Shown: one piece after another, positions 25,734 to 38,995 of the stretch
Numbering within the stretch: position 1 is the first letter of the stretch
Layout of the letters: each line of letters begins with the position of its first letter
Origin: Catenulispora acidiphila DSM 44928
GTDB taxonomy: Bacteria > Actinomycetota > Actinomycetes > Streptomycetales > Catenulisporaceae
Length of the DNA stretch: 64,000 bases
Direction of reading: 5' to 3'
NCBI RefSeq assembly: GCF_000024025.1
Contig: NC_013131.1
Coordinates: forward strand, 2,418,001 to 2,482,000
Translations under genes and position numbers: made by a program
Notes under the pieces: generated by a model
Told to the model about the DNA's origin: nothing
Database searches by the model: none
The model's input: only the letters and a program-made list of their open reading frames with translations

Positions 25734-27608
25734 TCAGCCCCGGGCTACCGCACCGCGACTCTCCGAAGAACCGTCCCCCACCCTGTCCAGCGCCTCATCC
25801 AGTGCCAGCGCCGCCCAGATCACGCCGAGGTGCGTGAACGCCTGCGGGTAGTTCCCCAGTTGCTGGCCGCCTGGGGTCAGTTCCTCGGCGAACAGGCCGG
25901 TGGGACCGGCGTGGCGGAGGAAGGCCTCGAAGAGTTTCTGCGCCTGCTCGACGGCGCCGCTTTGGGCGAGTGCGATGTGGTACAGGGTGGTGCACAGGTC
26001 GAAGCTGGACTCGTCGCCGGCGAGGCCGTCGCTGAATTCGCTGAGGCGGTAGCGGTGGCACAGGCCGTTGTGGATCAGGCTGCGTTCGATCGCGTTCAGG
26101 GTGCCGGTCCAGCGTTCTTCGTGCGGCGTTGTGAAGCCGACCATGGGCATGAACAGGATCGAGGCGTCCAGGGCGGCGTCGCCGTAGGTCTGGATGTAAG
26201 CCTGCTGATCCTCGTCCCAGCCCTTGGTGCGGATCTCGCCGGCGATCGAGTGCGCCATCACGGCCCACATGCCCGCGTTCTCGTGCGTCGGGGCGATGCG
26301 CAGTCCGTATTCGAAGGCGGCCCAGCACATCAGGCGGCTGTAGGTGAAGTCGCGGCGCCCGCCGCGGGTCTCCCAGATGCCTTCGTCCGGGCGGGCCCAG
26401 TGCTCGACCAGCCAGTCCAGCAGCCGACCGACCGCTGCCTGCCCCTCGGGGCTGTGCAGGTGCTCGGTGCCGGCCAGGGAGTAGAGGAACTCGCCGTAGA
26501 TGTCGAGCTGGAGTTGCTCGGCCGCGCCGTTGCCGATGCGGACCGGCGCCGAGCGGCGGTAGCCCTCCCAGTGCGGCAGCTCCTCCTCCAGGAGGTCCGC
26601 GGTGCCGTCGACGCGGTACATGATGTGCAGCGGCTCGCCAAGGCTTGTCGGGCCGTCGGCGAGGCGGCCGGTGACCCAGCGCGCGAAGGCCTCGGCCTCC
26701 TCGTGGAAGCCGAGGTCGGACAGCGCCCGGGCGCTGAAGGAGCCGTCGCGGATCCAGGTGTAGCGGTAGTCCCAGTTGCGGAAGCCGCCGATCTCCTCCG
26801 GCAGCCCGGTGGTCGCCGCCGCGAGGAACGCCCCGGTCGGTGAGTATGTCAGGAGTTTGAGAGTGATCGCCGAGCGGTGCACGGGGTCCGCCCAGCGGCC
26901 GCGGTACGTGCTCTGCGACAGCCAGCCGTGCCAGAAGATGAGCGCTTCCTCCAGCGCGCGCTCCACCTCGGCGGCGACGTCGGGCTCCCAGTCCTCGGGC
27001 GTGGCGAGACTGGCGACCAGGACGAAGGCGGCCGCCTCGCCGGCGCCGAGCAGGACCTCGGCCCTCGCGCTGCCGGAGTCCGCGTCCAGGCCCAGCGGCG
27101 CGGTCGACAGCAGGCTCAGGGTGCAGTCCGGTCCGGAGAAGACCGCGGCCTGCGTGCCGCCGCGCCGCACCAGCTCGACGGGCTCGCCGAAGGAGCGGCC
27201 GTAGTCGAAGCGCGGCCGGCAGTCCACCGAGAACTGGATGTCGCCGGCCACCGCGCGCACGATCCGGTACAAGGTCGTCGTGCCCGGCGTGAAGGAGGCC
27301 CGCGCCTCGTCCGGGACCATGAAATCGACGATCTCGCCGACCCCGCCGTCGGGGCTCTCGAACCGCGTCACCACCACCGCGCTGCGCGGCAGATAGGACT
27401 GGCTGGAGGCCGCGCCCTCGACCCAGATCCGGAACGCCCCGCCCCGTTCCCGGTCCAGCAGCGCGCCGAAGACGCTCGGCGCGTCGAACCGCCCGGGACA
27501 GAACCAGTCCACGGCGCCGTCACCGGCGACCAGCGCGCAAGTGCGCAGGTCACCGAGCAGACCGTGGTCGTCGATCGCGGGGTAGTAGGGGGGCGTGGTC
27601 GAGGTCAT
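25734..27608 (-). CDS. Glycoside hydrolase family 15 protein (glucoamylase/trehalase-like)
   Basis: Protein of 624 residues, the usual length for bacterial GH15 proteins. The N-terminal beta-sandwich domain begins with IDDHGLLGDLRTCALV and FCPGRFDAPSVFGALLD. The (alpha/alpha)6 catalytic domain holds RNWDYRYTWIRDGSF, the general-acid region PVRIGNGAAEQLQLDIYGE, and the C-terminal GLFAEELTPGGQQLGNYPQAF with a second acidic pair. There is no signal peptide, so it acts on an intracellular alpha-glucan or trehalose. Actinobacterial members include trehalases, and specificity cannot be read from sequence alone. Confidence 0.93.
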   Translation of the reverse strand: MTSTTPPYYPAIDDHGLLGDLRTCALVAGDGAVDWFCPGRFDAPSVFGALLDRERGGAFRIWVEGAASSQSYLPRSAVVVTRFESPDGGVGEIVDFMVPDEARASFTPGTTTLYRIVRAVAGDIQFSVDCRPRFDYGRSFGEPVELVRRGGTQAAVFSGPDCTLSLLSTAPLGLDADSGSARAEVLLGAGEAAAFVLVASLATPEDWEPDVAAEVERALEEALIFWHGWLSQSTYRGRWADPVHRSAITLKLLTYSPTGAFLAAATTGLPEEIGGFRNWDYRYTWIRDGSFSARALSDLGFHEEAEAFARWVTGRLADGPTSLGEPLHIMYRVDGTADLLEEELPHWEGYRRSAPVRIGNGAAEQLQLDIYGEFLYSLAGTEHLHSPEGQAAVGRLLDWLVEHWARPDEGIWETRGGRRDFTYSRLMCWAAFEYGLRIAPTHENAGMWAVMAHSIAGEIRTKGWDEDQQAYIQTYGDAALDASILFMPMVGFTTPHEERWTGTLNAIERSLIHNGLCHRYRLSEFSDGLAGDESSFDLCTTLYHIALAQSGAVEQAQKLFEAFLRHAGPTGLFAEELTPGGQQLGNYPQAFTHLGVIWAALALDEALDRVGDGSSESRGAVARG

Positions 27609-27718: not shown

Positions 27719-28975
27719 TCAATGCGGCAGCGCGCTGCCCGCGATCCAGTCGCTCCAGCTCAGGTTCCAGTCCCCGAATCCGTTGTCGGCGCGCACCGTG
27801 TCCTTGGAGTTCACGACCGTCACCGGATCGCCGGGGATCACCTGGTTGAAGAACCACTCGGCGTCCGAGGTCGACAGCCCCACACAGCCGTGGCTGCCGT
27901 TGACGTTGCCGAACTTGCCAGCGTTCCACGGCGCGGCGTGCACGAACGTCCCCGAGGGCGTCAGCCGCACGTCCCAGTACACGTTCGGGATGTCATAGGC
28001 GTTCACGCCGAAGATCCCCACGGTGGTGGAGTTCATGCGGATGTCCTGGTCCTTCTCCAGCACCACCATCGTGCCGTTCCAGGTCTCGAAGCCGGGCTTG
28101 CCGGAGCTGGTGAGCAGCGTCGTGGTCTTGCCGCCGGTGGTCACCGTCATCCGCTTGGTGGCGGCGTTCATCGTCGCGATCAGCGAGCGCCCGATGGTGA
28201 AGGTGACGTCCCGGTTCTGCTTGCCGTACAGGCTGCCGCTCTTCACGCCGTCCAGGCGCATGTGCAGCGTCACCTTGGTCCCCGGCGCCCAGTACTGCTG
28301 CGGTCGGAAGTCCACGCGCTCGGAGCCGAACCAGTGCCAGGAGCCGGCCACCGGCGGGTCGGAGGTCACCGTCAGCTGCTTCTCGACGGCGGCCTTGTCC
28401 GGGATCGGCTTGTCGAAGGTTATCGACACCGGCTGCGCGACGCCGTAGGTCGTGCCGGGGTCCGGTGTGTACGTGCCCGCATAGGTGTTGCCGGGCGTGC
28501 TGGTCGTGAACTGCGACGTGGCGGTCTGCTGTTTGCCGTCGTCGCCGACCGCGACCGCCGTCACCTTGTAGGTGTGCCCGATCCCGACCGGGTTCGCCGA
28601 CGTCCACGACGCGCCCGAGGGGTCCAGCGTCCCGGAGACCGCGTCGCCGCCGGACAGCTGCGCGGTGACAGAGGTCAGCTTCCCGTTGGCAACACTCACC
28701 GCGATCGGCGAGGAGGGGTCGACCCCGGAGGAGTTCGCCGCCGGTTTGATCACCACCAGAGCCGGGGAGGTGGGAGCCGAGGACGAGCTCGACGGGGCGC
28801 TCGGGGCAGTACTCTGCGACCCGCCGCCCGGCGAAGAGGCTGATGAAGAGGCCGAAGACCCGTTCCCCACCGGGGCGACAGCCGTGGTCTTCGACGAACT
28901 TCCGCCCCCGCCGCACGCCGCGGTCAAGCCCGCGACCGCCGCCGCGACAGCGAGCTTTTGCAGTCTGCGCATCAT
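27719..28975 (-). CDS. L,D-transpeptidase lipoprotein (YkuD, Ig-like domains)
   Basis: Protein of about 418 residues that makes 3-3 crosslinks in peptidoglycan, or anchors proteins to it. The lipobox LTAAC (Cys21) is followed by a Ser/Pro-rich linker and two Ig-like domains (about 75-250), then a YkuD domain with NGSHGCVGLS holding the catalytic His and Cys (Cys near 363). The layout equals that of mycobacterial LdtMt2-type enzymes. Tandem ATGs at 28975 and 28972 both follow GGGAGG; the second has the better spacing. It is divergent from the GlnX-like gene. Confidence 0.93.
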   Translation of the reverse strand: MMRRLQKLAVAAAVAGLTAACGGGGSSSKTTAVAPVGNGSSASSSASSPGGGSQSTAPSAPSSSSSAPTSPALVVIKPAANSSGVDPSSPIAVSVANGKLTSVTAQLSGGDAVSGTLDPSGASWTSANPVGIGHTYKVTAVAVGDDGKQQTATSQFTTSTPGNTYAGTYTPDPGTTYGVAQPVSITFDKPIPDKAAVEKQLTVTSDPPVAGSWHWFGSERVDFRPQQYWAPGTKVTLHMRLDGVKSGSLYGKQNRDVTFTIGRSLIATMNAATKRMTVTTGGKTTTLLTSSGKPGFETWNGTMVVLEKDQDIRMNSTTVGIFGVNAYDIPNVYWDVRLTPSGTFVHAAPWNAGKFGNVNGSHGCVGLSTSDAEWFFNQVIPGDPVTVVNSKDTVRADNGFGDWNLSWSDWIAGSALPH

Positions 28976-29144: not shown

Positions 29145-30578
29145 ATGACGACGGCGAGCGCACAAGCGTCGACCCAAGTATTGGCCGCCGCGCAGGGCGG
29201 TGCGGCAGCGGCCGCTCCGAGCGGACCGGGCGGGCCGGGTAAGCCGAGCGGGCCGGGCGGACCCAGCGAACCGGCGAAACCAGTACGGTCGCGGACTGAT
29301 CGCCGGCTGGTCCGGCTGCGAGCCTCGCTGGCCGTCGGAGCGCTGCTGTTCGGCGCGGCGGGGATCATCGGGACGCAGGTCCGCGCCGACGGCGCCGACG
29401 ACGCCAAGGCCCACAGCGGCGTCATGATCCAGCAAGCCGAGCAGCTCTATCACAGCCTCTCGGACGCGGACGCCACCTCGACGACCATCTACCTGCACGT
29501 CGGTGAGGCGCCGGCGGACCTGTTGGGCACGTACAACTCCGATCTGCAGAAGGCGCAGGCGGCACTGCTCGCGGCGACCAACGAGGCCGGAGACGACGCC
29601 GCGGCCAAGAAGGCGCTCGGCGCGGTCGCCTCGCAGCTGCCGCAGTACGTCAAGCTGAACGCGACCGCCGCGGCGAACAACCTGCTCGGGTATCCGGTCG
29701 GCTTCCGCTACCTGACGCAGGCCTCGAACTTGATGCAGGGCACGATCCTGCCGGCGGCGCAGAGTCTGACCGACACCGAGGCGAAGAACCTGGCCTCGGC
29801 GGAGGACACCGCCAAGCAGTTCCCGTTCCTGATGACCGTATTCGGCGTGCTGCTCCTGTTCGCGCTGCTGATGGTGCAGGTCCGTGAATCGCGGCGTACG
29901 AACCGCGTGTTCAACGTCGGGCTGCTCGCCGCCACGGCGGCGCTCGTGCTCTCCTTCGCCTGGACCGGGATCGACGTCACGGTCCAGAACGGCCACGAGG
30001 ACGACGCCCGCAAGCGCGGCTCGGATCAGGTGAGCGCACTGGCCACAGCTCGCATCCTGTCCCTGCAGGCGCGGACCGACGAGATGCTGACGCTGGTCGG
30101 CCGCGGCACCGCGGACGACAAGGAGACCGACTACGCCGGGGTGACCGCGGCGAGCGGGACGCACACCCCCGGCACCGAGGAACTGCTCGCCGCGAAGCTG
30201 CACGACGCGGTCGGCATCGCGACCGACGACACGGGGAAGAACCTCGCGCAGCACGCCGCGAGCGACGAGAGCTCGTGGCACACATTGCACCTGGCGCTGC
30301 GTGCCTCCGACGCGCAGAACCAGTACCAGAAGGCGGTGGACTCGGCGCTGGGCCAGCACGACTTCGCCGCTCCCAAGCCGAGCGCCGCCGCCTCGTTCAC
30401 CGCGTTGCAGGCCGACTTGGACCAGGCCATCAAGCACGCCGAGGCGTCCTTCCAGTCCGAGGCCGACTCCGGCGCGAGCGCGCTGGCCGGCTTGGAGATC
30501 GGCCTGGGACTTCTGGCTTTGGCGATGGCGGCGGCGGTGCTCCGGGGGCTGGGCCGCCGGATCGCGGAATACCACTGA
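29145..30578 (+). CDS. glnX: GlnX-like four-helix membrane sensor protein
   Basis: Protein of 477 residues. A Pro/Gly-rich cytoplasmic N-terminus (1-55) precedes TM1 (about 60-78). A helical extracytoplasmic domain of about 150 residues follows, then TM2 and TM3 close together (about 228-270), a second helical extracytoplasmic region, and TM4 near the C-terminus. The shape resembles a chemoreceptor-type four-helix sensor. First gene of a seven-gene cluster; in mycobacteria the equivalent membrane protein GlnX sits with GlnH and PknG and relays amino-acid availability. ATG 29145 preferred over 29064 because AAGGGGGG lies 8 bp upstream. Sequence similarity to GlnX is weak; the call rests on topology and context. 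Confidence 0.72.
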   Translation: MTTASAQASTQVLAAAQGGAAAAAPSGPGGPGKPSGPGGPSEPAKPVRSRTDRRLVRLRASLAVGALLFGAAGIIGTQVRADGADDAKAHSGVMIQQAEQLYHSLSDADATSTTIYLHVGEAPADLLGTYNSDLQKAQAALLAATNEAGDDAAAKKALGAVASQLPQYVKLNATAAANNLLGYPVGFRYLTQASNLMQGTILPAAQSLTDTEAKNLASAEDTAKQFPFLMTVFGVLLLFALLMVQVRESRRTNRVFNVGLLAATAALVLSFAWTGIDVTVQNGHEDDARKRGSDQVSALATARILSLQARTDEMLTLVGRGTADDKETDYAGVTAASGTHTPGTEELLAAKLHDAVGIATDDTGKNLAQHAASDESSWHTLHLALRASDAQNQYQKAVDSALGQHDFAAPKPSAAASFTALQADLDQAIKHAEASFQSEADSGASALAGLEIGLGLLALAMAAAVLRGLGRRIAEYH

Positions 30579-30588
30579 GGGGGCGGGG

Positions 30589-31656
30589 ATGACCACGATG
30601 AACGGCAGGCGCCACAACAGAATGCGCTTGTGGGGAGCAGCGGCGGCCGTGGCGGCCGTCGGGCTCGCCGGGGCGTGCAGCAGCACCAAAGGCGAGTCCG
30701 GCGCCGTCACGGTGCCCCGCTCCGGGCAGGGCATAGGCCCGGGCGCGCTTCCCAACGCCCCGAGCGTGCCGCCGAAGGCCTGCGGGCCGGAGGCCACCGC
30801 GGCGACGTGGAACGGACCGCTGCCCGGCCCGAACGACCCGGTCCCCGCCGGCGGGACCCTGGACAAGATCCGCAAGCGCGGGTTCCTGATCGCCGGCATC
30901 GACCTGAACACCGAGCTGTTCGGCTACGACCCGCAGCACGACAACAACCCGCAGGGCTTCGACGTCGACATGGCCCGGCAGATGGCGCGCGCCATCTTCG
31001 GCTCCGACGGCCACATCCAGTTCCGCGTGGTCACCCTCGGCGATCCGAAGACCGGCGAATACGCGCAGCTGCACGCCGGCAACGTGGACCTGGTGGTGCA
31101 GACCACGACGATCACCTGCGCGCGCATGCAGGGCGCGCAGCGGATGAGTTTCTCCAACCCCTACTACACCGCGCAGCTGAAGCTCCTGATGGCGCTCGGC
31201 GACGACGGCAAGCCGCAGAGCGCGTCCCTGGAAAGCCTCAAGGGCAAGAACGTCAAGGTCTGCGCGACGGCGAACTCCACCTCGATCGGCGAGATCGGCC
31301 AGGTGCTCGGCAAGACGAACGCCTTCCCGGCGCCCAACGCCTTGGACTGCCTGGCATATCTGCAACAAGACGAGGTCGGCGGGATCTTCACCGACGACGC
31401 CATCCTGCTGGGCATGACGCGCCAGGATCCGCACGTCGCGATGACCACCGCTCCGGCGGAGGAGAAGCAGCCGTACGGCATCGTCACGAACTATGACGCC
31501 GGCAAGGCGAACGACCTGACGCCCTTCGTGAACACCGCGCTGGCGAACATGATCCAGGACTCCGGGCCGAACGGCTGGCGCTCACTGTTTGCAAAGGATT
31601 TGGGTATCCAGCCCACGTCCCTGCCGGAGATCCCGGCGCAGTACCCTCTGGGATAG
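30589..31656 (+). CDS. glnH: GlnH-like glutamate/amino-acid binding lipoprotein
   Basis: Family 3 solute-binding lipoprotein of 355 residues. Signal peptide with lipobox LAGAC (Cys30). The ligand-binding core begins LDKIRKRGFLIAGIDLNTELFGY and GFDVDMARQMARAIFG, typical of Asp/Glu-binding proteins, with two Cys (in TITCARM and KVCATA) that may form a disulfide. No amino-acid permease or ATPase gene is adjacent, which fits a sensor and not an importer. In mycobacteria GlnH binds Asp/Glu and signals through GlnX to PknG. ATG 30589 lies 10 bp after the upstream stop. Confidence 0.88.
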   Translation: MTTMNGRRHNRMRLWGAAAAVAAVGLAGACSSTKGESGAVTVPRSGQGIGPGALPNAPSVPPKACGPEATAATWNGPLPGPNDPVPAGGTLDKIRKRGFLIAGIDLNTELFGYDPQHDNNPQGFDVDMARQMARAIFGSDGHIQFRVVTLGDPKTGEYAQLHAGNVDLVVQTTTITCARMQGAQRMSFSNPYYTAQLKLLMALGDDGKPQSASLESLKGKNVKVCATANSTSIGEIGQVLGKTNAFPAPNALDCLAYLQQDEVGGIFTDDAILLGMTRQDPHVAMTTAPAEEKQPYGIVTNYDAGKANDLTPFVNTALANMIQDSGPNGWRSLFAKDLGIQPTSLPEIPAQYPLG

Positions 31657-31720
31657 CCGAGCTGATGGAACGGGCGATACAGACCAGTCAGACGGGCATG
31701 GGGGGAGCAAGAGCACGACC

Positions 31721-32968
31721 GTGACGACCATGTGGACCCGGCAGGCGATCGACGCCGCGATCGAGCGCCGCGCCCAGGAGCGCTCGGGGGTCTCCGCCGG
31801 CCTGCTGGAACTGGACGACCATCCGGGCCGGCGGCTGCTGGACGGCGCCAAGCTGTCCGGTGCCACCGCGCAGGCCTGGGAGCGGGCCTCGGCCGAGCTG
31901 GCCGGGCTGTGGACCGTCTTCGAGGCCTACCAGCAGGTGCTGGACCGGGTCGCGGCGATGCGCGGCGGGCCAAAGACCCGGCTCGGCGACCGGGAACTGG
32001 CGGCCATGGCCGATCTGCTGACCGGCCGGTCCGTGGCGCTGCCCCGGCAGGCCGTGCCGTTCGAGCGGCGCGGACTGCTGGACCCGGCGAGTACGCAGGA
32101 CCTGCTGACCCTGGACGAAGCCGTGCAGTCCATGACCCGGATCTACGACGTGGTCAAGAAGGTCGCGGTCGACGCCGAGAACGCGTGGAACCGGCTGCTG
32201 GAGCCGTTGGACGACCTGCAGGCCAAGGCCCGCGCCGCGCGCGCCACCGCCGACGGCGTCGGGGGCGGCGGAGGCGGCGGAGGCGCCGATCCCGTCTTCG
32301 ACCGGCTGGCCGGGATCGAGGTCCAGACCGCGGACCTGCGGCGCCGGGCGCTGTCGGACCCGCTCGGCCTGGTGGCCGGCGGGTCGGGGACGCCGGCGCA
32401 CGTGACCCGGCTGCTGGCCGACCTGGCCGGCGTCCAGAGCGAGCTGGACCAGGCGCTGACCGCGCGCACCGAGTTCGACCGCCGGCTGGCCGGCGTCCAG
32501 GACGTCATCGTCCTGATAGCGCAGGCCGAAGCCGAGGCCGAGCGGGTCCGCGCCGAGGTGCGGGAGAAGATCGCCGCGCCGAAGCTGCCGCTGGCCTCGG
32601 CCGCGGCGGCGCATCTGCGCGGCAAGGTCGCCGACCTCCAGCGGGAACGTTCCGGCCAGTCCTGGACGTTGCTCGGCCGGAACCTGTCGGCCTTGGAGAA
32701 GAACAGCCGCGTGATCCTGGAGAACGCCCAGAAGCGGGTCGGGCAGATCCGCGCGCCGCTCGACCGGCGCGACGAGCTGCGCGGGCTGCTGGAGGCCTAC
32801 CGGGCGCGCGCCGCCCGGCACCGGGTCGCCGAGACCCCGGCGCTGTCCGCGGCGCACGCGCTGGCGCGCGACTTGCTGTGGTCCGCGCCGTGCGACCTGG
32901 CGGGCGCCGAAGCCGCCGTCCACCACTACCGGGCAGCCGTGGGCGCGGCGCTGCCGAGCATGTCATAG
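31721..32968 (+). CDS. Coiled-coil protein of the PknG cluster, unknown function
   Basis: Soluble protein of 415 residues, mostly helical, with Ala/Arg/Glu-rich coiled-coil stretches (about 130-200 and 265-380) split by a run of nine Gly near 190. There is no signal peptide, membrane helix or known catalytic motif. GTG 31721 (or ATG 31730) is chosen because the upstream frame lacks coding character. It sits between the GlnH-like and PknG-like genes, so it may couple the membrane sensor to the kinase (inference). Confidence 0.75.
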   Translation: MTTMWTRQAIDAAIERRAQERSGVSAGLLELDDHPGRRLLDGAKLSGATAQAWERASAELAGLWTVFEAYQQVLDRVAAMRGGPKTRLGDRELAAMADLLTGRSVALPRQAVPFERRGLLDPASTQDLLTLDEAVQSMTRIYDVVKKVAVDAENAWNRLLEPLDDLQAKARAARATADGVGGGGGGGGADPVFDRLAGIEVQTADLRRRALSDPLGLVAGGSGTPAHVTRLLADLAGVQSELDQALTARTEFDRRLAGVQDVIVLIAQAEAEAERVRAEVREKIAAPKLPLASAAAAHLRGKVADLQRERSGQSWTLLGRNLSALEKNSRVILENAQKRVGQIRAPLDRRDELRGLLEAYRARAARHRVAETPALSAAHALARDLLWSAPCDLAGAEAAVHHYRAAVGAALPSMS

Positions 32969-32987
32969 GTCTGGTGTCCACTGATGA

Positions 32988-36661
<3,674 letters not shown>

Positions 36662-36680
36662 CAGGAGCAAGTCAGCAGCC

Positions 36681-38003
36681 ATGAGCCAGTACCCGGACTT
36701 CGCCTTCGAGATCAACCAGAACGAGTTCCTGGCCGCCGGCGTGCGCGAGGTGCACGCGGTGGTCACGCTGACCGCCACCGCGGCGGCCGGCGGCGCTCCG
36801 GCCGCGGCCTCCTACGGCGCCCCGGCTTCGGGATCGGAGAACGTCGAGGTCATCATCATCGACTGCTCGGGGTCCATGGACTACCCGCGCACCAAGATGA
36901 TGGCCGCCAAGGAGGCGACCAAGGTCGCCATCGACACCCTGACCGACGGCGCCTTCTTCGCGGTGGTCGCCGGCACCGAGGGCGCGCGCGTGGTCTACCC
37001 GACCGGCGGGCAGCTGCTGCGCGCCGACTACCAGAGCCGCGCGGCGGCCAAGGAGGCCGTCGGGCGCCTGCACGCCAACGGCGGCACCGCGATGGGCCGC
37101 TGGCTGGCCCAGGCCGGCCGGATCTTCGACACCGCCCCGAGCGCCATCAAGCACGCGATCCTGCTCACCGACGGCAAGGACGAGTCCGAGACCCCGGCGG
37201 ATCTGGCGCGCGCGATCCAGTCCAGCATCGGCAACTTCACCGCCGACTGCCGCGGCATCGGCGAGGACTGGGAGCCCAAGGAACTGCGCAAGATCGCCGA
37301 CGCCCTGCTGGGCACCGTGGGCATCATCCGCGACCCGGCCACACTGGCCGAGGACTTCCGCGAGATGACCGCGAAGTCCATGGGCAAGGAGGTCGCCGAC
37401 GTCGCGCTGCGGCTGTGGGCGCCCAAGGGCGCGACGATCCGCTACGTCAAGCAGGTCAGCCCGAACCTGGCCGACCTGTCCGGGATGCGCGTGCCCGGCG
37501 ACAACCCGCTCACCGGCGACTACCCGACCGGCGCGTGGGGCGCGGAGAGCCGCGAGTACCACATCTGCGTCGAGGTCGAGCCGGGCAACATCGGCCAGGA
37601 GAAGCTGGCCGGCCGGGTGCAGCTGGTGGCCAAGGACGCCGGCGGCGCCACGCTGCTGGGCGAGGGCAAGATCCGCGCGGTGTGGACCGAGGACACGGAT
37701 CTGTCCACGCGCATCAACGGCCGGGTCGCGCACTACACCGGCCAGGCCGAGATGGCCGCGGCCATCCAGGAGGGTCTGGACGCCCAGGCCGCCGGCGACC
37801 TGGACACCGCCACCGCGCGCCTGGGGCGCGCCATGGACCTGGCGGTGGAGTCCGGGCACGAGGACACCGTGAAGATGCTGCGCAAGGTGACCGAGGTGGA
37901 CCCGGCCACGTCCAAGGTGCGGGCCAAGGCCAAGGTGGACAAGGGCGACGCGATGGAGCTCGACGTGGTGTCGACCAAGACCGTGCGCGCCAAGCGGAAC
38001 TGA
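36681..38003 (+). CDS. von Willebrand factor A domain protein (TerY-like position)
   Basis: Cytoplasmic protein of 440 residues, with no signal peptide. The MIDAS motif DCSGSMD (Asp61, Ser63, Ser65), a Thr in NGGTAMG and Asp in LLTDGKDE give a complete metal-ion-dependent adhesion site. A C-terminal beta-rich and helical part (about 240-440) is of unknown fold. The gene starts 19 bp after the PP2C stop. A vWA protein with a kinase and a PP2C phosphatase recalls the TerY phosphorylation triads described in tellurite-resistance-type clusters. Confidence 0.92.
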   Translation: MSQYPDFAFEINQNEFLAAGVREVHAVVTLTATAAAGGAPAAASYGAPASGSENVEVIIIDCSGSMDYPRTKMMAAKEATKVAIDTLTDGAFFAVVAGTEGARVVYPTGGQLLRADYQSRAAAKEAVGRLHANGGTAMGRWLAQAGRIFDTAPSAIKHAILLTDGKDESETPADLARAIQSSIGNFTADCRGIGEDWEPKELRKIADALLGTVGIIRDPATLAEDFREMTAKSMGKEVADVALRLWAPKGATIRYVKQVSPNLADLSGMRVPGDNPLTGDYPTGAWGAESREYHICVEVEPGNIGQEKLAGRVQLVAKDAGGATLLGEGKIRAVWTEDTDLSTRINGRVAHYTGQAEMAAAIQEGLDAQAAGDLDTATARLGRAMDLAVESGHEDTVKMLRKVTEVDPATSKVRAKAKVDKGDAMELDVVSTKTVRAKRN

Positions 38004-38083
38004 GATCTGCGGGGGGTACTTCAGATGGCGACGGTGAACAATCCGCGGCGGTGTGCCGCGGCCGGCGTTGAGGCGGGTGGACG

Positions 38084-38995
38084 ATGATGGCCACGTGTCC
38101 GGACGGACACCAGTCGGTCGCGACCGACTACTGCGACGAGTGCGGCTTGTCGATCGGCGCGCCCTCGGCGGCGGCCGCCGGCTCGTCCGCGAGCGGCGGC
38201 GCCGCGGCGCCGAGCTACGGCTCGGCCGGCGAGCCCTGCCCGAACTGCCTGCTGCCCAGGCAGGCCGGCGACACCTTCTGCGAGGGCTGCGGTTTCGACT
38301 TCGCCAACGAGCAGACCGGCAAGACGATCGACCAGCCGGAGCTGGACATCGAGGAGGAGCTGCGCAAGGCCGAGCGCGCGCGGCGTGAGGCCGAGGAGGC
38401 CGAACGCGCGGCCGGGATCGGTGCGTCGACGGGCTCAACGGGTTCGACTGGCTCGACCGGTCAGACCGGTTCCGGCGGCTCGGCGCCTCAGGGCCCGCAG
38501 ACCGACCCCGACGACGACCCGCTGGCCAGGACCGTCGCCTCGACCCCGACCGGCGTGCACGGCGGCGCTGTGTCCACGGCCCCGGCCACGGCCACGCAGT
38601 GGATCGCGATTGCCAGCGCGGACCGCGCGTACTACGACGCGGTGGTCGCCGAGGGCGAGATCGACGCCAACGCCTACCCCTTCCCGCCGTACTGCCCGGA
38701 GCGCCAGTACGAGCTCAAGGGCGACACGGTGCGCATCGGCCGCTCCGGCAAGCGCGGGAACGTCGACATCGACCTGACCGGCCCGCCGACCGACCCCGGC
38801 GTGTCGCATCTGCACGCGGTGCTCCAGCAGCGTGCGGACGGCGGCTGGCAGGTGGTGGACCTGGAGTCGATGAACGGCACGGTGCTCAACGACGACACCG
38901 CGCCGATCCCGCCGAACCAGGCGTTCCCGGTCGAGGCCGGGCACCGCATCCATGTCGGGGTGTGGACGACTCTGACGCTGATCCAGCTGTCCTGA
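38084..38995 (+). CDS. FHA-domain protein with zinc ribbons
   Basis: Protein of 303 residues. The first ribbon uses Cys5, His9, Cys17, Cys20; the second Cys52, 55, 66, 69. A charged coiled-coil helix (about 87-115) and a GSTGSTGSTG linker lead to a C-terminal FHA domain (about 205-303) with IGRSGKRGNVD, SHLHA and MNGTVLN. The phosphopeptide Arg, Ser and Asn are kept; the second Arg of the usual SRxH is His. It could be the phospho-reader or a substrate for the kinase, in the role of GarA/OdhI. Last gene of the cluster. Confidence 0.92.
   Translation: MMATCPDGHQSVATDYCDECGLSIGAPSAAAAGSSASGGAAAPSYGSAGEPCPNCLLPRQAGDTFCEGCGFDFANEQTGKTIDQPELDIEEELRKAERARREAEEAERAAGIGASTGSTGSTGSTGQTGSGGSAPQGPQTDPDDDPLARTVASTPTGVHGGAVSTAPATATQWIAIASADRAYYDAVVAEGEIDANAYPFPPYCPERQYELKGDTVRIGRSGKRGNVDIDLTGPPTDPGVSHLHAVLQQRADGGWQVVDLESMNGTVLNDDTAPIPPNQAFPVEAGHRIHVGVWTTLTLIQLS

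Follow-up and report, generated by a model that had tools for sequence, protein, structure and literature searches.

A seven-gene GlnX-GlnH-PknG cluster of Catenulispora acidiphila that may drive an ArnA-ArnB-like switch

Seven open reading frames (ORFs) on the plus strand of the Catenulispora acidiphila DSM 44928 genome (a single contig, NC_013131.1, of 10,467,782 bases) occupy positions 29145-38995 of the stretch analysed here (64,000 nucleotides, contig positions 2,418,001 to 2,482,000; hereafter, the window). They code, in this order, for a GlnX family protein (X), a GlnH solute-binding protein (H), a helical rod protein (C), the kinase PknG (K), a PP2C phosphatase (P), a vWA domain protein (V) and a zinc-ribbon FHA protein (F). 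Intergenic distances along X-H-C-K-P-V-F are 10, 64, 112, -4, 19 and 80 nt, and the kinase and phosphatase genes share an ATGA (35375-35378). Thus, ORF coordinates and family assignments confirm what an earlier note, made from the sequence alone, had said of seven plus-strand genes with short gaps and this overlap. Since the cluster is flanked by a minus-strand Big_10/YkuD protein gene on the 5′ side and a plus-strand Lipoprotein_15 protein gene on the 3′ side, its edges are clear. A promoter and terminator scan was uninformative, with 0 promoter-like sites and 1 minus-strand terminator-like site vs 2.1 expected. The features of the cluster are as follows.

29145-30578, plus strand: X, GlnX family membrane signal transducer (NF058618, 330 bits)
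30589-31656, plus strand: H, GlnH solute-binding lipoprotein sensor (SBP_bac_3), Asp/Glu-specific pocket residues partly lost
31721-32968, plus strand: C, all-helical rod protein by predicted structure, probable scaffold
33081-35378, plus strand: K, PknG (zinc ribbon, Ser/Thr/Arg-rich linker, rubredoxin, kinase, PknG_TPR)
33090-33146, plus strand: N-terminal zinc ribbon of K (C4-C22; strict pattern)
33150-33356, plus strand: Ser/Thr/Arg-rich, acid-free linker of K (by composition)
35375-36661, plus strand: P, PP2C phosphatase with a double zinc ribbon
36681-38003, plus strand: V, ArnB-like vWA, beta-sandwich and helical bundle protein (VWA_3 and VWA_3_C; structure, PDB 4FX5)
37971-37985, plus strand: STKTV tail of V (S431-V435), proposed phospho-docking site for F from motif correlation
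38084-38995, plus strand: F, zinc-ribbon FHA protein of ArnA-like architecture
38096-38143, plus strand: zinc ribbon 1 of F (from sequence)
38237-38290, plus strand: zinc ribbon 2 of F (from sequence), which aligns with the ribbon of ArnA and is similar to the ribbons that some V proteins carry
38729-38959, plus strand: FHA domain of F (domain match)

X clears the GlnX family cut-off of 250 bits and lies far under a narrower GlnX equivalog model (123 vs 780). The PDB entries closest to H are those called GlnH (6h2t and 6h1u, E 1.5e-32), while K is PknG throughout (PDB 2pzi, E 1.1e-160); a GlnX-family protein, a solute-binding lipoprotein and a PknG with rubredoxin and TPR domains thus stand in one gene line. 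Zinc ribbons, often ending in DGYCDxCG, lie near the N-termini of K, P and F; neither these ribbons nor the solved structure of V appear in the earlier note. With a loose ribbon pattern, none was found in V (n=68), C (n=63) or H (n=108) and one in X (n=107). Motifs are largely conserved among relatives of P (NED 70/71, GD[ST]R 71/71, DN[IV]T 67/71; the SDGxW pattern in only 36/71), V (DxSxS 62/66, TDG 64/66) and F (GR 66/66, NGT 64/66), and we take them to mark active proteins.

The crystal structure of V is already in the PDB as 4FX5, and its gene is given as caci_2163 in the text available from Hoffmann et al. (PMC6509490). Besides itself, the V model from AF2 (pLDDT 90.7) finds as its best structural match, over the full length of V, ArnB of the Sulfolobus ArnA-ArnB complex 8s05 (Z 30.8, 366 residues, rmsd 3.6); the ArnB paralogue 5a8j gives Z 28.1 (346 residues, rmsd 3.6) and 9c4f gives Z 24.6 (179 residues), and Sec23/Sec24 entries come later in the Foldseek list. 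V has the vWA domain, beta-sandwich and C-terminal helical bundle of the ArnB fold. This fold is published for 4FX5, and the likeness to ArnB is not new, being printed in the same paper; in the portion of it available, no mention of the neighbours of V was found. In the PDB, the sequence profile of F matches ArnA best (E 1.1e-13), the aligned stretches covering the ribbon (E 0.0014) and the FHA domain (E 2.3e-6), and F shares with ArnA an N-terminal zinc ribbon and a C-terminal FHA domain. We claim a likeness of architecture here and not orthology. According to the available passages of PMC6509490 and PMC12852372, unphosphorylated ArnB is bound by the zinc finger of Sulfolobus ArnA and the C-terminal bundle of ArnB, once phosphorylated, by the FHA domain; the kinase is ArnC and the phosphatase PP2A, and the tightness of ArnA-ArnB follows nutrients.

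The tail of V varies with the presence of F. A strict ST-x-T pattern is found in 66/70 V proteins with F in the locus (46 distinct tails, mostly STKTV, STRTV and STKTT) and in 1/8 V proteins without F, that single match lying inside a zinc ribbon (L191). In an alignment of 16 rows, conservation of T434 is 90% or more. A looser first pattern gave 68/70 and 1/8, and the stricter one was used; six incomplete V proteins (L069, L059, L165, L119, L134 and L161) were dropped from the counts, and the V of the window and 12 second-locus V proteins were added. Five V proteins, four from streptomycete K-V pairs and one from genome G406, have a C-terminal zinc ribbon of their own that resembles ribbon 2 of F. 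All five lack F, and no such ribbon is present in the 70 V proteins with F. A ribbon on either F or V is what one can expect if the ribbon docks on V. Since the rows are related to each other, the tail and ribbon counts are not independent.

By analogy with these systems, we lean slightly towards the view that the single operon encodes an envelope-to-cytoplasm nutrient circuit, in which receptor, kinase and phosphatase drive an ArnAB-like switch; the cluster would then be a GlnX-GlnH-PknG variant with an output module that operates as ArnA-ArnB does. The ligand of GlnH would be a small molecule, probably an amino acid or a related compound, and GlnX would relay the signal to PknG as in the mycobacterial/corynebacterial cascade. 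PknG may then phosphorylate the C-terminal tail of V. As suggested by ArnA-ArnB and by the ribbon present on either F or V, F would hold V doubly, with ribbon 2 on the body of V and the FHA domain on the phosphorylated ST-x-T tail, and PP2C would reverse the phosphorylation. Rod protein C would stay by the kinase and probably tether or space the complex.

The earlier note had proposed to look for a conserved order of the seven families in actinobacterial genomes. We compared 122 PknG loci (42 from a scan of named genomes with PknG and 80 of 109 listed PknG_TPR matches), one of which (L096) holds a distant kinase only. X-H-C-K-P-V-F is the order in 41/122 loci, which exceeds chance, and the genes travel as a unit. 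X-H-K alone is found in 21/122 loci, 18 of them in family f4 (probably mycobacterial); both named Corynebacterium loci have this form, and the available text of PMC6069109 describes this operon in M. tuberculosis, M. smegmatis and C. glutamicum. In family f68, which includes a Nocardiopsis contig, X-H has moved downstream and is still linked (C-K-P-V-F-X-H 8 times and K-P-V-F-X-H 3 times, all in this family), and a genome of another class (G169) has C-K-P-V-F with X-H on the opposite strand. The remaining patterns stem partly from contigs that end early. With start codons chosen by script, median gaps are 10 for X-H (103 pairs), -4 for C-K (67), 3 for K-P (74), 54 for P-V (65), 16 for V-F (66) and -4 for F-X (14). 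Since H-C is spaced more loosely (median 145, 50 pairs), an internal promoter between H and C is possible.

The coiled-coil protein that the earlier note placed between receptor and kinase is real and conserved, but the locus patterns assign it to the kinase and not to the receptor, because C stays with K when X-H moves. Its model is confident and all-helical (pLDDT 87.7, pTM 0.62), and its best conserved end lies around RRDELRG...AEDP...LWTAPCDL. C had no Pfam match up to E 1 and no Foldseek PDB match at E 0.001. The best relative by VIA, EzrA (Z 11.2, 193 residues, rmsd 7.2), scores below the level meaningful for helical bundles, and we therefore claim no relative for C. Its predicted shape and its position make a scaffold probable.

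The co-distribution of the genes agrees with their order. V and F are direct neighbours in 58/71 V loci. Among 246 genomes of the class, PknG_TPR (E 1e-30) is present in 87, GlnX in 86, F in 67, V in 55 and C in 55, and the 87 PknG genomes account for 85/86 of X, 62/67 of F, 55/55 of V and 54/55 of C (hypergeometric P <1e-29 for co-occurrence, figures that ignore the relatedness of genomes); genome G313, with a degraded cluster, is an exception. Since V, C and F are rarely found without pknG, the later genes are not mostly located away from it, in keeping with the single cluster described by the earlier note. In 197 genomes of the phylum V occurs in 9, every one with PknG. V matches lie within 5 kb of a PknG_TPR match in 57/72 cases. 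Ten of the other 15 were fetched: a K-like gene adjoins V in four (L193, L195, L198 and L202), one is a kinase fusion (L190), one lies at a contig edge (L200), and K was not detected beside V in four (L192, L194, L201 and L203). The fusion is in the C. acidiphila genome itself (L190:8322-11228, G000:C1:1273500-1293400; 968 residues, kinase 12-260, vWA 393-549, the latter of the V family) and supports a direct kinase-vWA link; no F was detected at its locus. L192, L194, L201 and L203, as well as L214-L217, are Frankia-like loci with P-V-F, P-F or F and no PknG detected, the first four lying near genes that by eye resemble ispD, ispF and cysS.

The zinc ribbon of K tracks the presence of P, V or F. 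By a strict pattern it is present in 63/80 K with P, V or F alongside and in 4/42 without them, three of these four on cut contigs; none of the 21 X-H-K loci has it. A looser pattern, positive in 100/120, was discarded. Of the 17 K with such neighbours that the strict pattern did not pick up, 14 were inspected: several do have a ribbon, either overlooked by the pattern or without its last cysteine, and others look like wrong starts.

Several observations weigh against an Arn-like circuit in one operon. The model of V also matches inter-alpha-inhibitor heavy chain 1 (Z 24.5, 332 residues, rmsd 5.8), and the sequence profile of V meets ArnB in the vWA domain only (E 9.5e-10, fourth, under two animal proteins). 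The Arn authors, in the available passages of PMC6509490 and PMC12852372, call the ArnB architecture widespread and mostly without such phosphorylation. Four V proteins with F miss the strict tail, and one without F (L143) has a similar TDRTT. V is undetected or degenerate in several f68 clusters (L119, L120, L124, L133, L134 and L136), and four Frankia-like genomes of family f69 (G209, G266, G294 and G312) have F and no PknG, P adjoining F in 3/4 fetched loci. The association counts ignore relatedness, and organisms with the three-gene operon signal without C, P, V and F. Finally, ArnA leads among the matches of F only with the ribbon, the FHA domain alone giving 45.6 bits vs GarA and 30.8 vs ArnA.

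The genome's own GarA/OdhI homologue lies elsewhere (L204:1291-1827, C1 near 3437500) and scores 172.9 bits, under the family cut-off of 200. It has an N-terminal zinc ribbon ahead of the FHA domain and a Thr-rich RTSTMS, and the preceding gene reads by eye like gcvH. F was considered as GarA itself and rejected, as it reaches 17.8 bits vs the OdhI family cut-off of 200; its profile does align with the ribbon-FHA homologue (97.9% probability). One could suppose that F is the main phospho-partner of PknG, a second GarA whose FHA domain docks on the autophosphorylated N-terminal stretch of K, with V as a passive platform. The FHA scores and the ribbon-FHA build of the genome's GarA agree with this, as does the linker of K, which has 26 Ser/Thr, 11 Arg and 0 Asp/Glu among 69 residues and may possibly be a stretch for autophosphorylation and FHA docking; in the available text of PMC8546545, the N-terminal extension of mycobacterial and corynebacterial PknG recruits its FHA substrate through autophosphorylation. 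A passive platform, however, needs neither a tail that tracks the presence of F nor a V gene adjoining that of F, and the linker of F, read by eye, showed no conserved Thr motif. We regard this explanation as unlikely, if worth keeping in mind.

GarA/OdhI is present in 242/246 genomes of the class and is therefore not tied to PknG. This, together with the Frankia-like genomes that hold P and F, or F, without PknG and the loss of V from some f68 clusters, would suit two circuits in one operon, of which GlnX-GlnH-PknG acts on GarA, as in mycobacteria, and P-V-F is an Arn-like module for some other kinase, the two sharing a promoter only. Yet V never occurs without PknG in the 246 genomes, K and P nearly overlap, the K ribbon is present in most clusters with P, V or F and in none of the three-gene loci, and V also adjoins PknG paralogues and is fused to a kinase in the C. 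acidiphila genome. We regard two circuits as quite improbable.

We next consider which form of the cluster is older. In a 63-row PknG tree with a midpoint root, 12 X-H-K rows and two lone K group together (14 rows, 100/100), with the full cluster of Nocardia acididurans as sister (99/97); one X-H-K row, L125 of family f91, is placed elsewhere and is a separate case. A quick 37-row tree, with eight streptomycete PknG-like paralogues as the root, again groups seven X-H-K rows with that Nocardia row (SH-aLRT 99), both inside a group with Catenulispora and Streptomyces (95). Parsimony by itself, with 5 changes on the unrooted tree, does not tell the direction. The Nocardia acididurans genome holds two further PknG copies, so duplication or transfer is possible there. 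Since the three-gene operon is nested in full-cluster lineages, the paralogue-rooted tree included, it is most simply explained by loss of C, P, V and F, and we conclude that X-H-K is probably the stripped form, a reduced descendant in mycobacteria that would keep sensor and kinase; the K ribbon follows the same split. The earlier note had the mycobacterial line extended in this genome, and that direction is probably to be reversed.

The same note expected Asp/Glu sensing. In mycobacterial GlnH, Arg147, Thr162 and Trp232 contact the Asp side chain, and Ser164, Arg169 and Asp250 contact the common amino-acid groups (PMC6069109, available text). An alignment of relatives indicates that H of the window retains Thr162, Arg169 and Asp250, has Ala for Trp232 and, beside a 4-residue insertion, has Glu or Pro at position 147 depending on the alignment. 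Trp232 is retained in 18/18 f4 proteins and is Gln in 4/4 of f2 and Tyr in 15/15 of f68. Arg147 is absent from Catenulispora, though most families retain it; Thr162 is mostly retained (Asn in 5/5 of f75), as are Arg169 and Asp250, and in this alignment two GlnH proteins from corynebacterial metagenome-assembled genomes have neither Arg147 nor Thr162. As two of the three residues that grip the side chain differ, Asp/Glu sensing was rejected for H of the window. Since the pocket is partly kept and partly changed, the ligand is likely to be amino-acid-like, and it may differ between lineages; the change speaks against the same ligand and not against membership in the cascade. Thus, the sense-write-erase-read layout of the earlier note fits the gene content, its amino-acid status in the sense of Asp/Glu is not supported, and the circuit itself is something that we infer. 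Two GlnX-like paralogues of the genome, L208 (C1 near 2530000) and L209 (C1 near 8743000), score 200 and 166 bits, and none of the other six cluster families is near them.

Taken more broadly, most actinobacterial PknG outside the mycobacterial-corynebacterial group might drive an ArnA-ArnB-type switch, with receptor, kinase, phosphatase, rod, vWA protein and ribbon-FHA protein forming one nutrient-responsive complex that is older than the GarA-only version and has a receptor re-tuned by lineage. We put this forward tentatively, as a little short of probable.

The cluster shares with the GlnH-GlnX-PknG-OdhI/GarA cascade the homologues of GlnX, GlnH and PknG in the same order and a GarA homologue elsewhere in the genome; it differs in having C, PP2C, vWA and FHA genes in the operon, an N-terminal zinc ribbon on PknG and a partly changed side-chain pocket in GlnH. 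Sulfolobus ArnA-ArnB likewise has a vWA, beta-sandwich and helical bundle protein beside a zinc-ribbon FHA protein, and its circuit also contains a Hanks-type kinase and a phosphatase, whereas here kinase, phosphatase and membrane receptor are in the same operon, the phosphatase is PP2C and not PP2A, the proposed phospho-site is in the ST-x-T tail, and F has two ribbons.

The earlier note compared the cluster with TerY phosphorylation triads. A stress or defence triad of the TerY-P type that recruited a GlnX-GlnH receptor would indeed have the same three enzyme classes (vWA, PP2C and Ser/Thr kinase), the kinase likewise bearing a zinc ribbon. The available text of PMC7159879 describes a related theme in actinobacterial GAP1-N2 GTPase systems, where a zinc-ribbon kinase, PP2C and standalone vWA genes stand together; those are predicted conflict systems, however, and the passage names no PknG, GlnX or GlnH. 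In G406 (L195), a PknG-like kinase and a ribbon-bearing V adjoin a gene whose start by eye resembles a trypsin-like protease, as in described conflict systems. In the cluster the kinase has a PknG architecture, with the ribbon at the N-terminus, TPR at the C-terminus and receptor genes attached, while the TerY-P kinase has a C-terminal ribbon (PMC11090510, available text), and because the ribbons are at opposite ends we rejected the TerY-P label. PADLOC at E 0.01 gave no match for P, V, F or C, the presence of TerY-P models in PADLOC not being established, and the cluster is conserved vertically and stably beside amino-acid receptors in several families. Such an origin appears highly improbable. 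The TerY comparison holds loosely, at the level of enzyme classes, and ArnA-ArnB is closer for the vWA/FHA pair.

Searches of open-licence PubMed Central articles gave no title or abstract start that describes the seven-gene cluster; STRING Figure 2B of PMC6069109 may show some of the neighbours, and the main text of that paper does not contain the terms vWA and phosphatase. The term PknG is absent from the main text of PMC6509490 and PMC12852372. PknG has mainly been studied in mycobacteria and corynebacteria, where the operon has three genes. If these operons are trimmed, a phosphatase and an FHA-vWA output belonged to the ancestral circuit, and Streptomyces, which encodes the parts side by side, may be the easier place to work out GlnX-to-PknG signalling. 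The cluster puts the isolated crystal structure 4FX5 into a context, and it provides a parallel in bacteria to the starvation switch of archaeal ArnA-ArnB, with a single, precisely located putative docking site.

Some streptomycetes have a divergent PknG_TPR kinase unaccompanied by the other six families (L171-L174). Upstream of the cluster in the window are two minus-strand genes, one at 27719-28975 for a Big_10/YkuD L,D-transpeptidase-like protein and one at 25734-27608 for a GH15/trehalase-like protein.

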